Source: Comamonadaceae bacterium
GTDB lineage: Bacteria > Pseudomonadota > Gammaproteobacteria > Burkholderiales > Burkholderiaceae_C
DNA: 64,000 nt
Assembly (NCBI GenBank): GCA_027486755.1
Contig: JAIXOM010000062.1
Span: forward strand, 1-64,000
Direction of reading: 5' to 3'
Shown: positions 16,966 through 41,700 of the stretch, piece after piece
How positions within the stretch are numbered: position 1 is the first letter of the stretch
Layout: every line of letters begins with the position of its first letter
Made by a program: the position numbers and the translations under genes
Notes under the pieces: generated by a model
Seen by the model: only the letters and a program-made list of their open reading frames with translations
Database searches by the model: none
What the model was told of the DNA's origin: nothing

Positions 16966-16976
16966 AAGGGTGCCCC

Positions 16977-17183
16977 ATGACACGGTATTTTGTTGTGCTC
17001 GCCATCGCCCTGAGCACGGCGGCGCAGGCCCGGACGACGCCGGTCGGCACCCGGCACAGCATCGACGATGCGACCGGCAAGCCCAAGGTAGAAATCATCG
17101 TCGGCGACGGCGGCAAGACGCTGCAGGTGCGTGGCTATATCGGGCCGTTTTTCCGCAACCAGCTCTGGCAGCGGGTGCAATGA
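16977..17183 (+). CDS. DUF2147-like exported protein with internal deletion
   Basis: 68 residues: a signal peptide (MTRYFVVLAIALSTAAQA) followed by PVGTRHSIDDATGKPK, which resembles the start of DUF2147. It then passes directly to GDGGKTLQVRGYIGPFFRNQLWQRVQ, which resembles the end of the same domain. Full proteins of this family are about 150 residues, so roughly 80 central residues appear deleted in frame. It lies in the fad operon between the dehydrogenase and the bifunctional enzyme. Function unknown and probably lost. Confidence 0.65.
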   Translation: MTRYFVVLAIALSTAAQARTTPVGTRHSIDDATGKPKVEIIVGDGGKTLQVRGYIGPFFRNQLWQRVQ

Positions 17184-17197
17184 AGCAAGGATCTTCC

Positions 17198-19594
17198 ATG
17201 AATCGATTCCATGTCAGACAGGTCGCGGTGCTGGGCGCCGGCGTGATGGGCGCGCAGATCGCAGCGCATCTGATCAACCTCAAGGTGCCGGTGCTGCTCT
17301 TCGATCTGCCCAGCGACAGCCCCAAGAGTGCCATCGCGATGCGCGGCATCGAGGGCCTGAAGAAGCTCAAGCCCGGGCCCCTGGGCCTGGCCGACGACGC
17401 TGCCCTGATCCGGCCGGCCAACTACGAAGAGCACCTGGGTCTGCTCAAGGACTGCGACCTGGTGATCGAGGCGATCGCCGAGCGCATGGACTGGAAGCTT
17501 GAGCTCTACCAAAAGATCGCGTCGGCCCTGGCTGCACACTGCATCGTCGCCAGCAATACCTCGGGGCTGTCCATCAGCCGGCTGAGCGAAGCTCTGCCCG
17601 AGTCGCTGCGGCCGCGCTTTTGCGGCATCCACTTCTTCAACCCGCCGCGCTATATGCAGCTGGTCGAATTGATCGCCACCGCATCAACCGACCTGGCGGT
17701 CATGGACCAGCTCGAGACCTTTGTGACCACCACCCTGGGCAAAAGTGTGGTGCGCGCCAAGGACACGCCCAACTTTATCGCCAACCGGGTAGGCACCGCC
17801 GGCATGCTGGCCACCATTGCCGAGGCCGAGAAATTCGGTTTGAGCTATGACGTGGTCGACGATCTGACCGGCAAGAAATTGGGCCGAGCGAGCTCAGGAA
17901 CTTTTCGCACTGCCGACGTGGTGGGTTTGGACACGCTGGCCCATGTGATCCGCACGCTGCATGACAACTTCACCGAGGCCACAGACCCCTTTGCGCCCCT
18001 GTATGAGACACCGCCCGTCCTGGCCAAGCTGATCGAGGCTAAGAGTCTGGGGCAGAAAAGCGGCGCGGGCTTTTACAAAAAGCCAGGGCGCGAGGTCTTG
18101 CGCCTCGATCCCACCACCATGGAGTACGTCACCGGCGGCGCCAAGGCCGATGAGGTGGTGGGCCGCATGCTCAAGAAGCCGGCCGCCGAGCGCCTGCGCC
18201 TGCTGCGTCATGCGCAGGGGGCTGAGCCCCGCTTTCTGTGGGCCATATTGCGCGACCAGTTCCATTACGCAGCGGTGCATCTGCAGGCCATTGCCGAGAC
18301 AGCGCGCGATGTCGATATGGCCATGCGCTGGGGCTTTGGCATGAAGCAGGGGCCTTTCGAGCTGTGGCAAGAGGCCGGCTGGCGGCAAGTCGCCAAGTGG
18401 ATACAGGAAGACATAGCTGCAGGTCAGGCCCTGTGCAAGGCGCCGTTGCCAGACTGGGTGTTCAAAGGCCCGGTCGATGAGGCCGGCGGTGTACATACCC
18501 CCGAGGGCTCCTGGTCGCCCGCAGCGGGGCGCTTCGTGGCGCCGCATCGCCTGCCTGTTCATGAGCGCCAGCATTTCCCCGAGGCTCCGATGGACACCCC
18601 AGCCCGCGCGGCCGCCCGCGCTGGCACCACGGTGCATGAAGATGAGGCTCTGCGCCTATGGACGCTGGACGGCCAGGTATTGATTGCCAGTATCAAGACC
18701 AAGATGCACGCCATCAGCCCCGATGTGGCCGAGGGCCTGGCGCGTGGCGTCGAGTTGGCCGAGCAGAACTACCAGGCCATGGTGATCTGGTCGCCCGATG
18801 ATGTGTTTTCCGCCGGCGCCGACCTGCAAGCCATGCTGCCGGCCTTCATGCTGGCCGGCGTCTCGGCCATTGAGGCGGCCGAGCATGAGTTGCAGAAGGT
18901 CATGCTCAGGCTGCGCTACGCCAGCGTGCCGGTGGTCTCGGCCATCCGCGGCCTGGCCCTGGGCGGCGGCTGCGAACTGGCCTTGTACAGCGCCCGCCGG
19001 GTGGCGGCGCTGGAGAGTTACATCGGCCTGGTCGAGGTCGGCGTGGGACTGGTGCCGGGGGCCGGGGGCCTGGCCTACATCGCCCGCCGGGCTGCGGAAA
19101 ACGCCCAACTGAGCACCAGCAAGGACCTGCTGTCCTTCTTAAGCGAGGGCTTTACCGCCGCCGCCATGGCCAAGGTGGGCACCAGCGCCCTGGAGAGCCG
19201 CAAACTCGGTTATTTGCTGGACAGCGACATCATCGTTGCGCACAAGGATGAGTTGTTGTTTGTGGCCCTTAGTGAAGCACGCGCTATGGCTGCTGGTGGC
19301 TGGCGCGCGCCGCTGAAGAAGCCTTTTGCGGCCGCCGGTCGCCACGCGCTGGCGACCATCCAGGGTCAGTTGGTGAACATGCGTGACGGCGGCTTCATCA
19401 GCGCCCACGACTATCACATTGGCAAGCTGATCGCTCAGGTGGTCTGCGGCGGCGAGGTGGAGCCCGGCACCCTGGTGAGCGAGGAATACCTGATGGCACT
19501 AGAGCGCAAGGCCTTTTGCGAACTGGTCGCCCATCCCAAGAGCCAGGAGCGCATCATGGCCATGATGAGCACCGGCAAGCCGCTGAGGAATTGA
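17198..19594 (+). CDS. 3-hydroxyacyl-CoA dehydrogenase / enoyl-CoA hydratase
   Basis: 798-residue bifunctional beta-oxidation enzyme. The N-terminal NAD-binding motif is VAVLGAGVMGAQIAAHL, followed by the dehydrogenase C-terminal domains with the HFFNPPRYMQLVE region. The crotonase domain comes last (RGLALGGGCELALYSARR, EVGVGLVPGAGG). This order is like Bacillus FadN and opposite to E. coli FadB. The start at 17198 has an AAGGA site; a long frame starting at 16970 reads through the DUF2147 remnant out of frame. Confidence 0.92.
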   Translation: MNRFHVRQVAVLGAGVMGAQIAAHLINLKVPVLLFDLPSDSPKSAIAMRGIEGLKKLKPGPLGLADDAALIRPANYEEHLGLLKDCDLVIEAIAERMDWKLELYQKIASALAAHCIVASNTSGLSISRLSEALPESLRPRFCGIHFFNPPRYMQLVELIATASTDLAVMDQLETFVTTTLGKSVVRAKDTPNFIANRVGTAGMLATIAEAEKFGLSYDVVDDLTGKKLGRASSGTFRTADVVGLDTLAHVIRTLHDNFTEATDPFAPLYETPPVLAKLIEAKSLGQKSGAGFYKKPGREVLRLDPTTMEYVTGGAKADEVVGRMLKKPAAERLRLLRHAQGAEPRFLWAILRDQFHYAAVHLQAIAETARDVDMAMRWGFGMKQGPFELWQEAGWRQVAKWIQEDIAAGQALCKAPLPDWVFKGPVDEAGGVHTPEGSWSPAAGRFVAPHRLPVHERQHFPEAPMDTPARAAARAGTTVHEDEALRLWTLDGQVLIASIKTKMHAISPDVAEGLARGVELAEQNYQAMVIWSPDDVFSAGADLQAMLPAFMLAGVSAIEAAEHELQKVMLRLRYASVPVVSAIRGLALGGGCELALYSARRVAALESYIGLVEVGVGLVPGAGGLAYIARRAAENAQLSTSKDLLSFLSEGFTAAAMAKVGTSALESRKLGYLLDSDIIVAHKDELLFVALSEARAMAAGGWRAPLKKPFAAAGRHALATIQGQLVNMRDGGFISAHDYHIGKLIAQVVCGGEVEPGTLVSEEYLMALERKAFCELVAHPKSQERIMAMMSTGKPLRN

Positions 19595-19602
19595 ATTCCC
19601 CG

Positions 19603-20034
19603 CTCCCTCCCCCTCTGGGGGAGGGTTGGGGAGGGGGCACGATGCAACAGCAGTCCACGATCAAGGCACAACGCCATGCCCGCGCTTTGCGTGCAGGCAT
19701 GACCGAATCGGAGCGACTTCTGTGGGCCAAGTTGCGTGCAGAGCAGTTGGGTGTGAAGTTCCGTAGGCAGCATCCGCTGGGAAATTACATCGCTGACTTC
19801 GCCAGCCTGGCGCCAGCTTTGATCGTGGAGCTTGATGGATCCCAGCACGCGGACCAGGTGGAATACGACGCTGGCCGCGATGCCTTTTTTAAGGCGCAGG
19901 GCTTTGCCGTCCTGCGTTTTCCGACCGACGCTCCCTTTCGAAACATGGAGGGCGTGTTGCAGGTCATTAGCGAACAACTGAGGGTGTTGGCGGACGCTGC
20001 CCCCACCCCAGCCCTCCCCCAGAGGGGGAGGGAG
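19603..20034. mobile_element. DUF559 gene between 37-bp inverted repeats (candidate element)
   Basis: A 37-bp GC-rich unit at 19603-19639 (L) and its near-perfect reverse complement at 19998-20034 (R) enclose the DUF559 gene. L begins CTCCCTCCCCC and R ends GGGGGAGGGAG, so CTCCC forms both outer ends. L is identical for 40 bp to a second copy at 20095. The arrangement looks like a small element with terminal inverted repeats inserted between two fad genes. Confidence 0.6.
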
Positions 20035-20055
20035 AGAAACCGGAGTTCCCCGTGA
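19642..20055 (+). CDS. DUF559 domain protein (Vsr-like predicted endonuclease)
   Basis: 137 residues. The N-terminal block MTESERLLWAKLRAEQLG, then FRRQHPLGNYIADF and LIVELDGSQHADQ, is the DUF559 pattern with the D...EXD acidic residues of PD-(D/E)XK nucleases. The start is at MQQQSTIKAQR just inside the left repeat. The C-terminal residues PTPALPQRGRERN are encoded by the right repeat itself. It interrupts an otherwise tight fad operon. Biological role unknown; mobility is inferred. Confidence 0.78.
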   Translation: MQQQSTIKAQRHARALRAGMTESERLLWAKLRAEQLGVKFRRQHPLGNYIADFASLAPALIVELDGSQHADQVEYDAGRDAFFKAQGFAVLRFPTDAPFRNMEGVLQVISEQLRVLADAAPTPALPQRGRERNRSSP

Positions 20056-20094
20056 TTGAAGACGATCAGGCTTTTGCGATGCCTAGCCTTTTTG

Positions 20095-20256
20095 CTCCCT
20101 CCCCCTCTGGGGGAGGGTTGGGGAGGGGGCACGACGGACCACTTTCTAGCCCCATGCACGCCAAGTCCGCGCAGACAGCCGTCAGATTTATTTCAACAGC
20201 CCACAGTGGTGGCGGATGCTGCCCCCACCCCGGCCCTCCCCCAAAGGGTGAGGGAG
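20095..20256. mobile_element. gene-less copy of the 37-bp inverted-repeat element
   Basis: L repeat at 20095-20131 and R repeat at 20220-20256 enclose 88 bp with no gene. L is identical to the L copy of the DUF559 element, and R has three to four changes plus shared upstream bases (GGCGGAYGC). It resembles a miniature, non-autonomous derivative. It lies immediately before the thiolase gene. Confidence 0.6.
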
Positions 20257-20275: not shown

Positions 20276-21472
20276 ATGAAACAACTTCAAGACGCCTACA
20301 TCGTTGCCGCCACGCGCACGCCCATCGGTCGTTCGGGGCGGGGCTTTTTCCGCAATACCCGGCCTGACGAGTTGTTGGTGCATGCCCTGCGTGCGGCCCT
20401 GGCGCAGGCGCCTACCCTCGATCCTGCAGCCATCGAGGATGTGATCGCTGGCTGTGCGATCCCTGAGGGGCCGCAGGGTCTGAACGTGGCGCGTATTGCG
20501 GCCGTGCTGGCCGGGCTTCCCACCGGCGTCGGCGGCATTACCGTCAACCGGTTTTGTGCCTCCGGCCTGTCGGCGGTGCAAATGGCGGCTGATCGCATCC
20601 GGGTGGGCGAGGCCGATGTGATGATGGCTGGTGGCACCGAGAGCATGAGCATGGTGCCCATGTCGGGCAACACGCCTTCGCTGTCGCCGGCCATGTTTGC
20701 CCGCGACGACGATGTCGGCATCGCCTACGGCATGGGCCTGACCGCTGAGAAGGTGGCGCAGCAATGGAAGGTGAGCCGGGAGGCGCAGGACCACTTTGCC
20801 TGCGAGTCGCATGCGCGGGCCCTCAAGGCTCAGCAGGCGGGCGAGTTTGCCGACGAGATCGCGCCCATGCAGATCACCGAGCGCGAGCCCGATCTGCAGA
20901 CCGGGCAGTTGCAGCTGCGCGAGCGTACCGTCAGTCTGGACGAGGGCCCGCGCGCCGATACTTCTATGCAGGGCTTGGCCAAGCTCAAGCCGGTGTTTGC
21001 GGCCCGCGGTTCGGTCACGGCCGGCAATTCCTCGCAGACCTCCGACGGCGCTGGCGCGCTGATCCTGGCCAGCGAGAGGGCCATCAAGACCCATGGCCTC
21101 ACGCCGCTGGCGCGCTTCGTCAGTTTTGCCAGCAAGGGCGTACCGCCCCACATCATGGGCATAGGCCCGATCGAGGCCATTCCCGCCGCGCTGCGCCATG
21201 CCGGGCTGCAGCAGCATGAGCTGGACTGGATCGAGCTCAACGAGGCTTTTGCCGCCCAGTCGCTGGCCGTCATCGATACCCTGGGCCTGGACGCCGCTAA
21301 GGTCAACCCTCTGGGCGGCGCGATTGCGCTGGGCCACCCCTTGGGCGCAACCGGCGCCATACGCGCCGCCACGGTGGTGCATGCCCTTCGTCGCCATCAG
21401 CTGCGCTACGGCATGGTCACCATGTGCGTGGGCATGGGCCAGGGAGCGGCCGGTATTTTTGAGCGGGTCTGA
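20276..21472 (+). CDS. acetyl-CoA C-acyltransferase (thiolase)
   Basis: 398-residue thiolase completing beta-oxidation. The nucleophilic Cys is in NRFCASGLSAVQMAADRIR, the His in GGAIALGHPLGATGA, and the second Cys in VTMCVGMGQGAAGIFE. MKQLQDAYIVAATRTPIGR is the usual N-terminus. It is separated from the bifunctional enzyme by the DUF559 element and its miniature copy but remains co-directional. Confidence 0.94.
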   Translation: MKQLQDAYIVAATRTPIGRSGRGFFRNTRPDELLVHALRAALAQAPTLDPAAIEDVIAGCAIPEGPQGLNVARIAAVLAGLPTGVGGITVNRFCASGLSAVQMAADRIRVGEADVMMAGGTESMSMVPMSGNTPSLSPAMFARDDDVGIAYGMGLTAEKVAQQWKVSREAQDHFACESHARALKAQQAGEFADEIAPMQITEREPDLQTGQLQLRERTVSLDEGPRADTSMQGLAKLKPVFAARGSVTAGNSSQTSDGAGALILASERAIKTHGLTPLARFVSFASKGVPPHIMGIGPIEAIPAALRHAGLQQHELDWIELNEAFAAQSLAVIDTLGLDAAKVNPLGGAIALGHPLGATGAIRAATVVHALRRHQLRYGMVTMCVGMGQGAAGIFERV

Positions 21473-33212: not shown

Positions 33213-35297
33213 TCAGTGGATGCGCATGCCCGGCTGGGCGCCGGGCCAGGGCTCGAGGATGTAGATACCGGGCTGGGCTTTTTCGTCGGCGTGGCTGGCG
33301 GCCAGGACCATGCCTTCGCTCACGCCAAATTTCATCTTGCGTGGCGCCAGGTTGGCCACCAGGACGGTCAGCTTGCCTTGCAGATCGGCGGGCTGGTACA
33401 TCGAGGCGATGCCGGAAAAGACATTGCGCGTCTTGCCTTCGCCCACATCGAGCGTCAGGCGCAGCAGCTTGGTCGAGCCTTCCACCGCCTCGCAGTTCAC
33501 GATCTTGGCGATGCGCAGATCGATCTTGGCAAAGTCGTCGATGGCAATGGTGGGCGCGATCTCTTCGCCTCCCGGCGCGCCCCCCGGCGCGCCCCCTGCC
33601 CCGCTTGCGGCAGAGGGCTGGGGTGAGGGTTCTTGCGCAGCCGGCGGCTCAAACAGGGCATCGAGCTGCTCGGGCGTGACCCGCTGCATCAGGTGCTGAT
33701 AAGGCGCGATCGCCGCCACGTCCTGCACATCGTCCCAGCGGTCGAGCTTGCGGCCGACCAGCTTTTCCACCTCGCTCGCCAGGGTTGGCAGCACCGGTGC
33801 CAGGTAGCGGCTGAGCGTAGCGAAAGCGTTGATCAGCACTGAGCAGACCTGGTGCAACTTCTCGTTGTTGTCTTCCTTCTTGGCCAGCTCCCAGGGCTTG
33901 TTTTGGTCGACGTAGGCGTTGACCTGATCGGCCAGGGCCATGATTTCTCGACTGGCCTTGCCGTACTCGCGGCTGTCGTAGTGCTCGGCAAGCGCTGTGC
34001 TGGCTTCGCGCAGGGTCTGCAGCAGGGCGGCGCCGGCCGCATCGAAGTGGGAGGTCAAGCGCCCGTCAAAACGTTTGGTCAAAAAGCCGGCCGCCCGGCT
34101 GGCGATGTTGATGTATTTGCCCACCAGGTCTGAATTGACCCGCAGCATGAAGTCCTCGGCATTGAAGTCGATGTCCTCATTGCGGGCGCTGAGCTTGGCG
34201 GCCAGGTAGTAGCGCAGCCATTCGGGGTTCATGCCCAGGCTCAGGTATTTGAGCGGATCGAGCCCGGTGCCCCGGCTCTTGCTCATCTTCTCGCCGTTGT
34301 TGACCGTCAGAAAGCCATGCACAAACACCTGGTTGGGCACCTTGCGGCCACTGAAGTGCAGCATCGCCGGCCAGAACAGGGTATGGAAGGTGATGATGTC
34401 CTTGCCGATGAAGTGGTACTGCTCGGTGGTCGGGTCAGCCATGAAGGCGGCGTAGTCACGGCCGGTCTTGCCGAAGTGGTTTTTCAGCGAGGCCAGGTAA
34501 CCGACTGGCGCGTCCAGCCAGACATAGAAGTACTTGCCCGGCGCGCCGGGAATCTCAATGCCGAAGTAGGGCGCATCGCGCGAGATGTCCCAGTCGCCCA
34601 TCTTGGGCTTGCCGTCTTCGCCCGGGGCGATCCATTCGGTTATCTTGTTGAGCACCTCGCTTTGCACCGCGCCGCTGCTGGTCCAGGCCTTGAGAAACTC
34701 GATGCAACGCGCATCCGAGAGCTTGAAGAAAAAATGCTCCGAGTTCTTCAGCACCGGTTTGGCGCCCGACAGCGCCGAATAGGGGTTCTTCAGCTCGGTG
34801 GGGGAGTACACCGCGCCGCAGACCTCGCAGTTGTCGCCGTATTGGTCCTTTGCGCCGCATTTGGGGCATTCGCCCTTGATGAAGCGATCGGGCAGGAACA
34901 TGTTCTTGTCGGGGTCGAAGAACTGTTCGATGGTGCGGGTCTCAATCAGCCCTGCCTTTTGAAGGTCCAGGTAGATCTGTTGAGCCAGTTCGTGGTTTTC
35001 GGGCGCGTCGGTCGAGTGCCAGTTGTCAAAACCGATGTGAAAGCCGTTGAGGTAGGGCGGCCGGCCGGCGGCAATGTCGGCCACAAACTGCTGCGGCGTC
35101 ACGCCCGCCTTTTCAGCCGCGATCATGATGGGCGCGCCGTGCGCGTCGTCGGCGCAGACAAAGTGCACCTCGTGGCCCTGCATGCGCTGGAACCGCACCC
35201 AGATGTCGGCCTGGATGTACTCCATGATGTGGCCGATGTGGAACTTGCCATTGGCATACGGCAAGGCGGTGGTGACGAACAGGCGACGCTGGGGCAT
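33213..35297 (-). CDS. metG: methionyl-tRNA synthetase
   Basis: 694 residues. The HIGH-type motif is [14 protein letters not shown], the zinc knuckle is [17 protein letters not shown], and KMSKS appears as [11 protein letters not shown]-terminal EMAP/tRNA-binding domain begins near [11 protein letters not shown]. The linker before it contains an [18 protein letters not shown]-like segment encoded by one unit of the 37-bp repeat family at 33582-33632, an in-frame insertion. The enzyme is otherwise of normal length and motif content. Confidence 0.96.
33582..33632 (-). repeat. single GC-rich repeat unit inside metG linker
   Basis: On the minus strand the bases ACCCTCACCCCAGCCCTCTG and the following GCGGGGCAGGG match the R-type unit found at 39136. 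It is degenerate and followed by short CCGGCGCGCC repeats. It encodes Pro/Ser/Ala/Gly residues between the catalytic and tRNA-binding domains. Confidence 0.65.
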
Positions 35298-36822: not shown

Positions 36823-38778
36823 ATGACTGCTTCTCTTGCCTCTCCCCCCGTGACCCGCGTGCCGCTCGACGGCCTGCGACAAAGCCTCAAGCGCCACGCC
36901 AAGCTCAAGGGCCGCCAGCCGGATGATGCCTCCCTGGCCGAGGTGCGCGCCTTGATCGGCCCTCGCCCCGAAGGCGGCCACCGCCGCGACCTGTTGATCG
37001 AGCACCTGCACCTGCTGCAAGACGCCTACCTGGGCTTGCACGAGCGGCACCTGGTGGCGCTAGCCCGGGAGATGAACATTCCCATGGCCGAGGTCTACGA
37101 GGTGGCGAGTTTTTATCACCACTTTGACATCCTGCGCGAGGGTGAATCGGCGGCGGCGCTGACGGTGCGGGTGTGTGATGGACTGCCCTGCGAAATGCAG
37201 GGGGCGCGGGCGCTGCTGGAGAGGCTGCCGGCCATTTTGGGGAGCGAGGTGCGGGTGATTGCTGCGCCGTGCATTGGCCGCTGTGAGCAGGCGCCGGCGG
37301 CGCTGGTGGGGCAGCGGGCGGTGCCTTGGGCCAGGGTTGAGAAAATTGCCGAGGTCTGTGGGCACGCGATGCCCCTCTCCCCAGAGGGGCGAGGGAGTCA
37401 TGCGGGCTTCCATGCGATGGAGGAACTAGGGAGTGATGCTGGCCCCCATTCGGCGGAGGGGCGAGGGAGCGATGTAGATCCTCTTGCGAGTGAGGGGCGA
37501 GCTAATCATGTGGCGGCTCGCGCTAGTGAGGGGAGGGGGAGTCAGACGGCGCCCCTTTCAGCACAGGTGAGCCCTGTCTTACTCCCTCTCCCTCTGGGAG
37601 AGGGCAGGGGTGAGGGCACGGAAGTCGATTACGCGGCCTACCTCTCAAAAGGCGGCTACACCCTGGCCCGGCGTATCGTCAGCGGCGAGCTGCCCGACGA
37701 CGAGGTGATCCGCGCCCTTGAAGGCTCGGGCCTGCGCGGCCTGGGCGGGGCCGGTTTTCCGGCTGGGCGCAAGTGGCGCATCGTGCGCGATCAAGCCGCG
37801 CCGCGCCTGATGGCCGTCAACATCGACGAGGGCGAGCCTGGCACTTTCAAGGACCGCACTTACCTGGAGCGCGACCCGCACCGCTTTCTTGAAGGCATGC
37901 TGATCGCCGCCCACGTGGTGGGCACCGAGGCCTGCTACATCTACCTGCGCGACGAGTACCACGACTGCCGGCGCCTGCTGGCCGCCGAGATTGCCAAGCT
38001 GCAGGCCGACCCGCCTTTCCCGCTGCCGCGCATCGAACTGCGCCGGGGCGCAGGCGCCTACATCTGCGGCGAAGAGTCGGGCATGATCGAGAGCATCGAG
38101 GGCAAGCGGGGCGAACCGCGCATGCGCCCGCCCTACATCGCGCAGGTGGGCCTGTTTGGCCGGCCCACGCTGGAGCACAACTTTGAGACGCTGTACTGGG
38201 TGCGCGAGATCGTCGAGCGCGGACCGCAGTGGTTCGCCTCCCAGGGCGCCAACGGCCGCCAGGGCCTGCGGTCTTTCAGCGTGAGCGGCCGCGTCAAGAA
38301 CCCGGGTGTCAAACTCGCGCCGGCCGGCATCACGCTGCGCGAGTTGGTGGACCAGCACTGCGGCGGCATGGCCGAGGGCCATGCGCTTTACGCCTACCTG
38401 CCGGGTGGCGCTTCTGGCGGCATTTTGCCGGCGCATCTCGCCGATATTCCGCTGGACTTTGACACCTTGCAGCCCTACGGCTGCTTCATAGGCTCGGCGG
38501 CGGTGATCGTGCTCAGCCAGCAGGACAAGGCGCGCGACGCGGCGCTGAATATGATGAATTTTTTCGCACACGAGAGCTGCGGCCAGTGCACGCCCTGCCG
38601 GGTGGGCACGGCCAAGGCCGCGCAGCTCATGGCCGCCCCGGTGTGGGACGCGGCCACCTTGCAGGACCTGAGCGCGGTGATGGTGGACGCGTCCATCTGC
38701 GGCCTGGGCCAGGCCGCGCCCAACCCGGTGCAAAGCGTGCTCAAGCACTTTGCCCATGAAGTCGGAGTTGCCGCATGA
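36823..38778 (+). CDS. formate dehydrogenase, fused gamma-beta subunits (FdsG-FdsB)
   Basis: 651 residues. The N-terminal 180 are NuoE/FdsG-like with a thioredoxin-type [2Fe-2S] site (CDGLPCEM, CIGRCEQ). The rest is NuoF/FdsB-like with FMN/NAD motifs GLGGAGFPAGRKW and NIDEGEPGTFKDR and the [4Fe-4S] site CGQCTPCRVG plus a later Cys. It passes electrons from FdsA to NAD. Between the domains, about residues 183-266, lies an insertion made of repeated (S/A)EGRGS units and LPLPLGEGRGEG. The insert is explained by GC-rich repeats at 37370-37620. The start at MTASLASPPV is chosen by homology. Confidence 0.9.
   Translation: MTASLASPPVTRVPLDGLRQSLKRHAKLKGRQPDDASLAEVRALIGPRPEGGHRRDLLIEHLHLLQDAYLGLHERHLVALAREMNIPMAEVYEVASFYHHFDILREGESAAALTVRVCDGLPCEMQGARALLERLPAILGSEVRVIAAPCIGRCEQAPAALVGQRAVPWARVEKIAEVCGHAMPLSPEGRGSHAGFHAMEELGSDAGPHSAEGRGSDVDPLASEGRANHVAARASEGRGSQTAPLSAQVSPVLLPLPLGEGRGEGTEVDYAAYLSKGGYTLARRIVSGELPDDEVIRALEGSGLRGLGGAGFPAGRKWRIVRDQAAPRLMAVNIDEGEPGTFKDRTYLERDPHRFLEGMLIAAHVVGTEACYIYLRDEYHDCRRLLAAEIAKLQADPPFPLPRIELRRGAGAYICGEESGMIESIEGKRGEPRMRPPYIAQVGLFGRPTLEHNFETLYWVREIVERGPQWFASQGANGRQGLRSFSVSGRVKNPGVKLAPAGITLRELVDQHCGGMAEGHALYAYLPGGASGGILPAHLADIPLDFDTLQPYGCFIGSAAVIVLSQQDKARDAALNMMNFFAHESCGQCTPCRVGTAKAAQLMAAPVWDAATLQDLSAVMVDASICGLGQAAPNPVQSVLKHFAHEVGVAA
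37370..37620 (+). repeat. in-frame GC-rich repeat insertion in fdsB
   Basis: Begins with an R-type unit, then short amplified versions of its 3' part (GAGGGGCGAGGGAG variants, about 36-bp spacing) and ends with an L-type unit at 37583-37619. It adds about 84 codons without a stop or frameshift, all in the linker of the fused subunit. Confidence 0.85.
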
Positions 38779-41700
38779 ACGCGCCCCTCAATGCCCAGCA
38801 CCTGCAGCCTGCTACCGTGGAATTCGAGCTCAACGGCCAGGCCGTGCAGGCCTCGGCCGGCGACACCATCCTGGCCGTGGCCAAGCGCTTGGGCGTGGAG
38901 ATTCCGCACCTGTGCTTCAGCGAAGGCCTGAGGCCTGACGGCAACTGCCGCGCCTGCGTGGTCGAGATCGCCGGCGAGCGGACCTTGGCGCCCAGCTGCT
39001 GCCGCGCTGTGGCGCCGGGCATGAAGGTGCAGTCGGGCAGCGAGCGCGCGCTCAAGAGCCAGAAGATGGTGCTGGAGATGCTGCTGTCGGACATGCCGGA
39101 TGCTGGCTACAAGTGGAATGATGGGGGCGGTGTGCTGCCCCTCACCCCAGCCCTCTCCCCAGAGGGGCGAGGGAGCCAAGAGGACCCCCGTTCCGCGCAG
39201 GGGCAAGGGCGCCCTGACTTACTCCCTCTCCCTCTGGGAGAGGGTTGGGGTGAGGGCATCGGCCTGTCCCATACTCAGCCCGTCGGCCAGCACGGCGAGC
39301 TCAGCCTCTGGGCTGAGCGAATGCAGGTCAAAGTGCGTCCCGCGCTCAAGGCCCTGCGCCGCAAGCAGCCCGAGGCCGACATCTCCCACCCGGCCATGGC
39401 CGTCAACCTCGACGCCTGCATCCAATGCACCCGCTGCGTGCGCGCCTGCCGCGAGGAGCAGGTCAATGACGTGATTGGCTACGCCCGTCGGGGCGCGCAC
39501 AGCCAGATCGTGTTCGACTTGGCCGACCCCATGGGCGCCAGCACCTGCGTGGCCTGCGGCGAGTGCGTGCAGGCCTGCCCGACCGGCGCGCTCATGCCTA
39601 AGACGCAGATCGGCTCGCAGGTGGTGGACAAGACCGTGGACTCGGTCTGCCCCTTTTGCGGCGTGGGCTGCCAGCTGAGCTACAAGGTCAAAGACAACAA
39701 AATCGTCAGCGTCGAAGGCCGCGACGGGCCGGCCAACCACGGGCGGCTGTGCGTCAAAGGTCGATTCGGCTTTGACTATGCGCACAGTCCGCAGCGCTTG
39801 ACCCAGCCTCTGATCCGCCGCGAGGGTGTGGCCAAGGACCCTGCCGCACTCGAAAACCTCAACCGCAATACGGCCGATTGGTCGCATGTTTTTCGTGAGG
39901 CCAGCTGGGAGGAAGCCCTGGCCCTGGCCGTCGGGGGCTTGAGGCGTCTGCGCGATTCCCACGGCCCCAAGTCGCTGGCCGGTTTTGGCTCGGCCAAGGG
40001 CAGCAACGAAGAGGCCTACCTGTTTCAAAAGCTGGTGCGCACCGGTTTTGGCAGCAACAACGTGGACCACTGCACCCGCCTGTGCCATGCCTCCAGTGTT
40101 GCCGCGCTGCTCGAAGGCGTGGGCTCGGGCGCGGTGAGTAATCAGGTGAGCGACGTGGCGCACAGCGAGTTGATTTTTGTGATCGGCTCCAACCCCACGG
40201 CCAACCATCCGGTGGCCGCCACCTGGATGAAGAACGCGGTGCAGGCCGGCAAAAAGCTGGTGCTGGCCGACCCGCGCATCACCGACATCGGCCGCCATGC
40301 CTGGCGCACCCTGCAGTTCAAGCCCGATACCGATGTCGCCATGCTCAACGCCATGATCTACACCGTGATCGAAGAGGGTCTGACCGACCCGGCCTTTATC
40401 GCGCAGCGGGTCAAGGACTACCAAGCGCTGCGCGAGCGCATCCGTCCCTACGGCCCCGAGGCCATGGCGGCTATCTGCGGCATCCCGGCTGAGCGCTTGC
40501 GTGAAGTGGCTCGCGCCTACGCCACATCCAAGGCCTCCATGATTCTTTGGGGTATGGGGGTGAGCCAGCATGTGCATGGCACTGACAATGTGCGCTGCCT
40601 GATTGCGCTGGCCAGCATCACCGGCCAGATCGGCAAGCCCGGCTCCGGCCTGCACCCCCTGCGCGGGCAAAACAATGTGCAAGGCGCCAGTGACGCCGGG
40701 CTCATCCCAATGATGTTCCCCAACTACCAGCGGGTGGCCGATAAAGCGGCCCACGCCTGGTTTGAAGACTTCTGGCAGAGCCCGCTCGATCCGCAGCCGG
40801 GCTATACCGTCACCGAGATCATGGACAAGGCCATGGCCGATGACAGCGATCCGCACAAGGTGCGGGGCCTGTACATCATGGGCGAGAACCCGGCCATGAG
40901 TGACCCCGACCTCCACCATGCCCGCGCCGCTCTGGCCAGCCTCGAGCACCTGGTGGTGCAAGATATTTTCATGACTGAGACCGCCTGGCTGGCTGATGTG
41001 GTACTGCCTGCCACCGCCTGGCCAGAGAAGACCGGCACCGTCACCAACACCGACCGCATGGTGCAGATGGGCCGGCAGGGCCTGCAGCCCCCGGGCGATG
41101 CAAGGGCCGACCTGTGGCTCATTCAGCAGATGGCCGCGGGCATGGGCCTGAGCTGGAATTACGCAGGCGAGCACCATGGCGTAGAGCAGGTCTACGAGGA
41201 GATGCGCCGTGCCATGCATGCGGTCATCAGCGGCATCAGCTGGCAGCGCCTGCAGCAGCACTCCAGCGTGACCTACCCTTGCCTGAGCGAGGACGATCCG
41301 GGTCAGCCCACGGTGTTCACCGAACACTTTGACACTCCGGATGGCCGGGTGCATCTGGTGCCGGCCGATCTCATCAGTGCCGACGAGCTGCCCGATGCGA
41401 GCTACCCCTTTGTGCTGATCACCGGCCGCCAGCTCGAACACTGGCATACCGGCAGCATGACCCGCCGCGCCAGCATGCTTGACGCCATTGAGCCGGTGGC
41501 GGTGGCCTCGATGAACGGCGCCGATTTGCAGGCCCTGGGCGTGAGCGCCGGTGAGGTGATCACCATCGCCTCGCGTAGGGGCGCGGTGGTGGTGCAGGCC
41601 AGGCGCGATGACGGCACACCCCAGGGCTCGGTGTTCATGCCCTTTGCCTTCCATGAGGCGGCGGCCAATGTGCTGACCAATGGCGCGATTGATCCGGTGG

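Follow-up and report, generated by a model that had tools for sequence, protein, structure and literature searches.

A DUF559 nuclease gene framed by triplex-type repeats: a probable mobile unit and candidate partner of BoxC/PIT elements

BoxC/PIT repeats have been known in bacteria since the 1990s, without an explanation. A locus in a Comamonadaceae bacterium raises the question of whether a nuclease gene lying between such repeats could be what spreads them. The locus belongs to a stretch of 64,000 nt, here called the window (GCA_027486755.1, JAIXOM010000062.1, positions 1-64,000, forward strand; own genome labelled G000). A sequence-only reading had proposed that the DUF559 nuclease encoded there could move or spread the GC-rich repeats around it, that a neighbouring gene-less repeat pair was a miniature derivative, and that no element of this kind had been described.

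The insertion site is bordered on the left by a FadJ-like 3-hydroxyacyl-CoA dehydrogenase ORF (16970..19594, + strand) and on the right by a thiolase gene (20276..21472, + strand). Between them lies the gene for a YcjD-like, PD-(D/E)XK nuclease of 137 aa (19642..20055, + strand; PF04480 E 2.5e-34), with its ATG at 19642 and its stop at 20055. As first described, the coding sequence is framed by inverted repeats L (19603-19639) and R (19998-20034), which are 95% complementary, the final codons crossing R. A second pair without a gene follows at 20095-20131 and 20220-20256 (86% complementary, 88 bp between), and the two L copies are identical over 40 bp (19603-19642 = 20095-20134). Only DUF559 is coded between the repeats, and the unit holds no recognised transposase.

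Each window repeat consists of a 9-bp pyrimidine/purine hairpin, a 3-nt linker and a G-rich tail that mirrors the purine arm, G standing against G and A or T against A when the purine arm is read backwards. Purine-motif intrastrand triple helices follow this rule of matching, with the tail as third strand. The left motif (19605..19637, + strand) is built from arm CCCTCCCCC, loop TCT, arm GGGGGAGGG, linker TTG and third strand GGGAGGGGG, and the right motif is inverted (20000..20032, - strand); both point their third strands gene-ward with 9/9 triads. The triplex finder places the gene-less pair at 20097..20129 (+ strand) and 20222..20254 (- strand). The third strand is complete (9/9) in all four motifs of the two pairs, and one of the four, the right motif of the gene-less pair, has a single stem mismatch. 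The motif exceeds chance expectation: its pattern matches five times in the window versus 0 in each of 100 dinucleotide shuffles, and the objective triplex finder gives eight window hits versus 0 in each of five shuffles. The left third strand (GGGAGGGGG, window 19629-19642) lies directly upstream of the DUF559 ATG and could be a ribosome-binding site, while the right repeat codes for near-C-terminal residues of the protein (PTPALPQRGRE). As for the gene-less pair, 25 bp inside its right repeat agree with the DUF559 gene at 18/25 positions, but 5/200 shuffled spacers align equally well; its origin by deletion is thus at best weakly suggested, and the miniature derivative first proposed is not a proven deletion product.

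By this build, the 37-bp repeats are assigned to a known class of intrastrand-triplex motifs (BoxC = PIT = TM_ECO). The published pattern, CCCTCNCCC-N3-6-GGGNGAGGG-N3-GGGNGAGGG with at most one mismatch (PMC4666352), is matched by the DUF559-flanking window copies with one departure each, in the last block (GGGAGGGGG or GGGTGGGGG). In the parts of that paper drawn on here, Holder et al. (2015) give CD/NMR triplex data for the E. coli motif, report no stable triplex in vivo, count 3610 TM_ECO copies over 262 genomes and describe triplex repeats as common in proteobacteria. The same parts examine the gene contexts of the E. coli motifs and state that activities providing mobility were never found; the main text, as available, contains no word beginning 'nuclease' (PMC4666352). 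The window repeats resemble this class in occurring as singlets and inverted doublets, in strong number differences between strains and in belonging to the purine-motif type. They differ in that the motifs bracket a gene, whereas no mobility genes near motifs are described in those parts of PMC4666352, and in that the class is widened here by more stem types, among them GGGGGAAGG and AAAGGGGGG. The repeats are of a known class; the DUF559 link is new. In the open-licence PMC literature, covered mostly at the level of titles and the starts of abstracts, no paper was found that connects triplex, BoxC or REP repeats to DUF559 or ycjD. What the comparisons below add is this link and a pattern that spans phyla.

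The flanking sequences are of many types, with 73 distinct purine arms when length variants are counted in. The motif finder itself conditions on triads, whereas a hairpin-first test places no condition on the tail. With hairpins taken in this way, 108/173 inner versus 14/173 outer flanks had a perfect third strand behind a linker of 3 nt, and the other linker lengths from 0 to 7 gave 0-11 perfect third strands on inner flanks. The mean score of.809 fell to.669 (at most.701 in 1000 rounds) when tails were swapped among hairpins of equal stem length. Stems such as AAAGGGGGG are paired with third strand GGGGGGATT. Judged from these comparisons, stem and third strand covary across lineages, also in motifs that lack a G-quadruplex motif, and it is this covariation that argues for a triplex fold of the DUF559-flanking repeats.

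A G-quadruplex motif (G3+ x4) is present in 162/234 flanking motifs; quadruplex formation is not the common factor, because 72/234 lack it, and there are only two runs of G in the AAAGGGGGG/GGGGGGATT types. An account of the repeats as ordinary terminators was also set aside, as on reasoning it would leave the inward-pointing upstream copy and the type matching described below unexplained. The AAAGGGGGG/GGGGGGATT motifs form a separate triplex family that goes with its own DUF559 genes (L068, L073, L077, L082, L308, L312) and is found alongside other types within single genomes (G289, G329, G180).

The window protein scores 117.9 bits against PF04480 (cut-off 20.6), which places it in the DUF559/YcjD family, and 85.9 bits against the PRK09767 equivalog profile (NF007294), below the cut-off of 218. 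By these scores, it is related to E. coli YcjD without being its equivalog. E24, H69 and D76 are invariant in DUF559, and D52 is invariant or near-invariant. An AlphaFold model (mean pLDDT 84.4) finds its nearest solved fold in the gonococcal endonuclease-like protein 3hrl (E 3.4e-7), followed by PvuRts1I (E 6.8e-3) and the homing endonuclease I-Bth0305I (3r3p; Foldseek E 7.7e-3, and E 1.9e-4 against DUF559 by HMMER). Sequence matches in the PDB to cholera and enterotoxin B chains (E 0.13-0.59) were put down to chance. DUF559 shares with I-Bth0305I and Vsr both the fold and the residues E, D, H and D of EDxHD, which we take to be the motif and name for I-Bth0305I-type homing endonucleases, although the fold match is modest (E 7.7e-3) and that to Vsr is weak (1cw0 E 2.9, 1vsr E 2.4). 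DUF559 further differs from these enzymes in having no intron and in being flanked by structured repeats.

Are gene and repeats regularly found together? All 54 strong stand-alone DUF559 hits (E < 1e-20, own genome included) among 199 relatives were read, and a motif lay within 200 bp in 46/54 loci, on both sides in 33/54. A multi-phylum set, the best 80 of 576 relatives, took in, as judged by the titles of the records, Chloroflexi, Rickettsiales, Deltaproteobacteria, Planctomycetota, Omnitrophota, candidate phyla and further groups; in these best 80 of 576, a motif lay within 200 bp in 66/80 loci and on both sides in 48/80, compared with a background of 29 motifs in 377 kb more than 400 bp from the gene. 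For the class sample, in which 30 of 55 strong DUF559 hits outside the own genome were counted, the values were 22/30 and 19/30. Sixteen further class-sample loci were compared only between copies within one genome and stand outside the pooled count (two of them, L300 and L305, have no motif); L310 and L311 were not used.

Pooled over 163 distinct stand-alone loci (one duplicate removed; the best 80 of 576 included), 133/163 have a motif within 200 bp and 100/163 on both sides, and 210/233 motifs point inward, that is, with the third strand toward the gene. Motif-less stand-alone genes are a minority in this pool (30/163, best 80 of 576 included), rather than being equally frequent, and the first impression of one unit of gene and repeats was borne out. 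Other DUF559-superfamily genes in the relatives, 17 of them small, weak matches and 20 lying within long ORFs, had a motif in 0/37 loci. The motif-DUF559-motif unit has a median length of 431 bp from hairpin to hairpin (71 inward pairs). On these counts, the DUF559 gene and the repeats are almost certainly associated as one genetic unit.

The site beside the thiolase gene allows this unit to be followed. In the window's genus, it adjoins the same thiolase gene in 17/19 carriers, the remaining two being cut by contig ends; in the window's family, it does so in 20/23 carriers of the relatives set, with two contig-end cuts and one genome (G090) in which it lies elsewhere. Carriers of the family outside the genus have it at the thiolase site in three cases (G091, G103, G106; not G090), and Ramlibacter, Variovorax, Rhodoferax and Comamonas loci have this site in common. 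Because the gene mostly keeps one site (20/23), the unit appears to jump rarely in this family. The arrangement is not shared by all relatives: among 40 non-carrier thiolase loci (21 + 19, after dropping L332, the second locus of carrier G085, and L239, a contig break), 38 have neither gene nor motif, including one (G028) that shows a degenerate hairpin by eye, and two have one motif without the gene. Carrier G085 has a locus with the unit (C67, L061) and a second fadJ-thiolase locus without it (C82, L332). Among close relatives with similar flanking genes, the site may be empty (G055, G025, G048, G032), hold a unit of repeat type C (G050) or hold one of type A (G004). Read together, these alleles show gene and repeats being gained, lost or exchanged as one cassette at a fixed site.

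Repeat type follows the nuclease. The distinction between type A and types B/C requires one change on the DUF559 tree (19 genes) versus six on the tree of the adjacent thiolase, which includes 16 of the carriers and leaves weaker branches unresolved. All repeat types together require three changes on the DUF559 tree, against a mean of 7.7 and a minimum of 4 in 1000 shuffles; for G002 and G015, the type was taken from the DUF559 clade because no motif passed beside either. Genome-wide, the mean share of repeats matching the type beside the genome's own DUF559 is.72 versus.38 shuffled (p 2e-4, 17 genomes). The commonest type differs from the flanking type in 3/17 genomes (G000 itself, G035, G050), and two types tie in G077. 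In genomes with several DUF559 genes, these are mostly divergent, with 40-65% identity outside the three G230 copies described below, and often have different repeat types (e.g. G289, G329, G180).

If the nuclease promotes the spread of the repeats, carriers should be richer in them. The earlier expectation that repeat number depends on DUF559 was confirmed, with exceptions. In a Burkholderiales sample of 199 genomes (46 carriers, own genome included, and 153 non-carriers), exact motif copies had a median of 16.5 in carriers versus 0 in non-carriers (p 4e-15), and the difference also held in the other families alone (p 6.5e-8). The class sample gave medians of 7 in 37 carriers versus 0 in 147 non-carriers (p 4e-12). 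With a reversed-pattern control subtracted and the own genome left out, the medians were 16 versus 0 (p 1e-14) for Burkholderiales and 2 versus 0 (p 4e-12) for the class sample. This control is 0 in most genomes and high in G133 (16), G157 (13), G345 (37/39) and G207 (20/21), partly because AGA-third-strand motifs read the same backwards. The loads are lower bounds, since pattern A misses copies with TTA linkers and only three repeat types were counted; load, carrier and type counts were compiled by hand from match listings. The higher repeat number in carrier genomes is a property that DUF559 shares with REPIN/RAYT systems.

Corrected for phylogeny, the comparison rests on few pairs: eight independent pairs on the thiolase tree, with 7.1 in the same direction and 0 in the other (median p.016, range.008-.06). 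This tree is of one gene, with 12/34 inner branches open, and covers 37/87 genomes of the genus, those with the locus fetched; repeat-rich non-carriers such as G064, G068, G070 and G073 are outside it. The link between load and gene is loose or lagging, because 13/153 Burkholderiales non-carriers have at least 15 repeats and 10/46 carriers have fewer than five. The class sample has 14 non-carriers with at least five copies, some of them with short partial DUF559 hits (e.g. G308, G345, G212). G070, the nearest genome by fdsA (88%), has 107 copies and no DUF559 hit, and its thiolase locus was not found either. Repeat-rich genomes in which no strong stand-alone DUF559 was detected are G070, G064, G068, G101, G133 and G245; loss of the gene, gaps in the assembly or a different partner may account for these.

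Dispersed copies in the own genome can be read directly. The repeat units first noted inside other genes are present in the fdsB-like gene, in frame (37584..37616, + strand), and in fdsA, whose in-frame doublet has its third strands outward (39138..39173, - strand; 39224..39256, + strand); the copy in metG, a gene on the - strand, is degenerate (33592..33629, + strand). Across the own genome, 78 BLAST pieces match the region, many being both strands of one repeat, and the motif pattern has 60 matches versus 2 for the reversed pattern. In the stretches read, the copies are singlets and inverted doublets, the latter 13 inward and 11 outward. The fdsA gene was readable in 22/30 loci, with a motif insert present in 8/22 and absent in 14/22. 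Six genomes (G000, G043, G073, G060, G082, G045) have the in-frame doublet with outward third strands, opposite in orientation to the DUF559-flanking pairs; two (G070, G015) keep a single motif at the same place, and the remaining 14 loci have few residues at the insert position.

Multiplication of a whole unit is seen in one genome, G230. Its three near-identical DUF559 units encode proteins that are 96-98% identical, and two of them agree at 98.3% over 534 bp without gaps; by this near-identity, a unit of DUF559 with triplex ends has multiplied there. The copies are bounded by outer inverted ends of 40 bp and show 9-bp duplications, of which two are exact (GTGCAGATT, GTTTGTAAC) and the third has a mismatch. 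These duplications sit at the ends of an extra outer shell, beyond the triplex motifs; the alleles at the thiolase site resolve no target-site duplication. Around the 71 other inward pairs, no outer repeat of this strength was found (0/71 score at least 40; G230 copies 56-85). Short outer similarity exceeds 20 shuffles in 18/71 of these pairs, none near the G230 value, and a general inverted repeat outside the motif pair was rejected. Because the outer ends resemble IS/MITE ends and are far stronger than those around the 71 other pairs, another transposase may have moved the G230 copies. The target sites (L298, L297, L274) look palindromic in part (GGTCAGGGTTTGTAAC / GTTTGTAACCTTGACC in one case), which would fit a preference for hairpins as targets.

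In E. coli, ycjD is present in 3365/5426 genomes. Among 60 of 5108 records listed, and with 28-base exact words needed for a match, 39 strains with ycjD average 3.3 further motif places, against 1.8 in the 21 without it (p 2e-6). Going by what we take the phylogroups of the counted strains to be, the repeat-rich MG1655 is on the side of the phylogroups in which ycjD is conserved. According to PMC12817139, conservation of ycjD extends over phylogroups A, B1 and C, and the gene also occurs in ST69 and ST182. The K-12 locus has a degenerate hairpin across the ycjD stop codon and, ~170 bp downstream, one full motif with its third strand outward; there is no clear upstream copy, because no other motif passed within the 15 kb read. 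The locus does not serve as a clean empty site, as RND efflux genes occupy it in 4/4 ycjD-less strains read (cf. PMC12817139). The ycjD region is broken by an IS1-like element in NZ_CP041627.1 and NZ_AP027666.1 (H71, H85).

Several known systems invite comparison. RAYT genes are bordered by REPs. DUF559 resembles REPIN/RAYT systems in having a single gene or few genes at a fixed inherited place, many non-autonomous doublets and carriers richer in repeats (for the RAYT side, part of PMC8049555). It differs in its enzyme, which is PD-(D/E)XK and not Y1/HUH, a profile search having found no Y1 (HUH) domain in the window protein, and in its signal, a triplex-capable hairpin with a G-rich third strand. 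REPs carry a GTAG or CGTC tag at one end (PMC3733652, in part); by inspection, the DUF559-flanking window repeats have neither. Because enzyme and DNA signal are unrelated, the DUF559 system, by analogy, works like REPIN/RAYT and is not a member of it. Empty and filled alleles at the thiolase site permit a comparison with homing-type elements. Inverted ends and the three G230 copies with 9-bp duplications recall MITEs and insertion sequences, whereas the unit has no known transposase domain and the G230 duplications lie outside an extra shell.

Could the repeats depend on something other than DUF559 for their spread? The nuclease might serve maintenance or addiction, resolving triplex-blocked forks and being needed in repeat-full genomes while moving nothing, the flanking repeats marking its first settling place. 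Such a role would fit a repeat load that follows the gene in both genome samples, the block that PIT elements pose to DNA polymerase in vitro (with no effect found in vivo, according to the parts of PMC4666352 drawn on) and the finding, in part of PMC12907096, that VsrA, a DUF559 protein, is behind an SOS response in Caulobacter when a cytosine methylase is missing. Repeat-rich genomes without a detected DUF559 exist, however, and maintenance leaves unexplained the 210/233 inward motifs (best 80 of 576 included), the matching of gene and flank types and the exchange of cassettes; we consider it unlikely. A second function without movement would be Vsr-like mismatch repair, in which DUF559 mends T:G mismatches from cytosine methylation and the repeats are hitchhikers that found shelter. 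The VsrA work just cited speaks for it, as does the YcjD profile that detected Vsr at 1e-5 in 2005 (PMC1189080, in part), but it is silent on the repeats and Vsr itself is only a weak fold match, which makes this reading very improbable.

Alternatively, repeats and DUF559 could both be passengers of other mobile DNA, carried by an IS or by gene conversion through homologous recombination, with DUF559 having no part in the spread. The G230 shell and its 9-bp duplications do resemble IS/MITE transposition, and plain homologous recombination could account for the exchange at the thiolase site. Against this stand the lack of a G230-strength shell around the 71 other inward pairs, an association that holds across phyla with differing repeat sequences (best 80 of 576), and a 538-bp G230 unit that, outer ends included, has no match in plasmid or phage records at E 0.01, so that a passenger role is quite improbable. 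A further alternative, in which Y1 transposases move the repeats as REP elements and DUF559 is incidental, is scarcely credible. The own genome does have one Y1_Tnp gene, Y1 genes are common (160/199), and genomes with them are slightly richer in repeats (medians 1 versus 0, p.0013). Yet the own Y1_Tnp gene (L011, G000:C1:25783-29109) is bordered by a different inverted repeat, GGGGTCAGATACCAATTAATT, with ends at 1434-1454 and 2251-2271, and the DUF559 effect stays with Y1 held constant (p 5e-12 within Y1+, 1e-5 within Y1-). Eight carriers have no Y1 hit, five of them with 12-38 repeats. RAYT was rejected as the mover on these grounds.

On the reading we prefer, which is probably correct, the motif-DUF559-motif unit is an element that moves or once moved, and the BoxC/PIT repeats have DUF559 as their cognate nuclease. 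The sequence comparisons show inward flanking, covariation of stem and third strand, matching of nuclease clade and repeat type, repeat excess in carriers, and gain, loss and exchange of cassettes. Because this small, widespread gene usually lies beside or between inverted repeats and carriers tend to be much richer in repeats, its nuclease may be the enzyme so far missing for their spread, and a functional partnership promoting that spread seems rather likely. To our knowledge, PD-(D/E)XK nucleases cannot alone rejoin ends as transposases do, which counts against this explanation. In the mechanism we envisage, a repeat that becomes single-stranded, for instance in the template of a replication fork, would fold into a hairpin, with the G-rich 3' tail turned back into the groove to act as third strand. 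This folded shape would be what the Vsr/EDxHD-like nuclease recognises and where it nicks or cuts. As the end so released or broken is repaired or re-inserted, doublets could be copied to new places, the gene less often. By analogy with the REPINs of RAYT transposases, the dispersed doublets and singlets would be the non-autonomous products. That DUF559 recognises the folded triplex and nicks it we put forward tentatively.

In summary, the best reading is of a REP/RAYT-like system with an unrelated, Vsr/EDxHD-like nuclease. A broader version, in which BoxC/PIT repeats across bacteria are transposable elements whose end is a single-strand-folded triple helix recognised by DUF559, independently of all known transposase chemistries, is a serious possibility but somewhat doubtful. 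A cognate gene would open repeat mobility to direct tests in E. coli K-12, a strain with ycjD. If the preferred reading is true, a large DUF family would gain a function, and the covariation of stem and third strand over many lineages would be natural evidence of selection seeing a DNA triplex.
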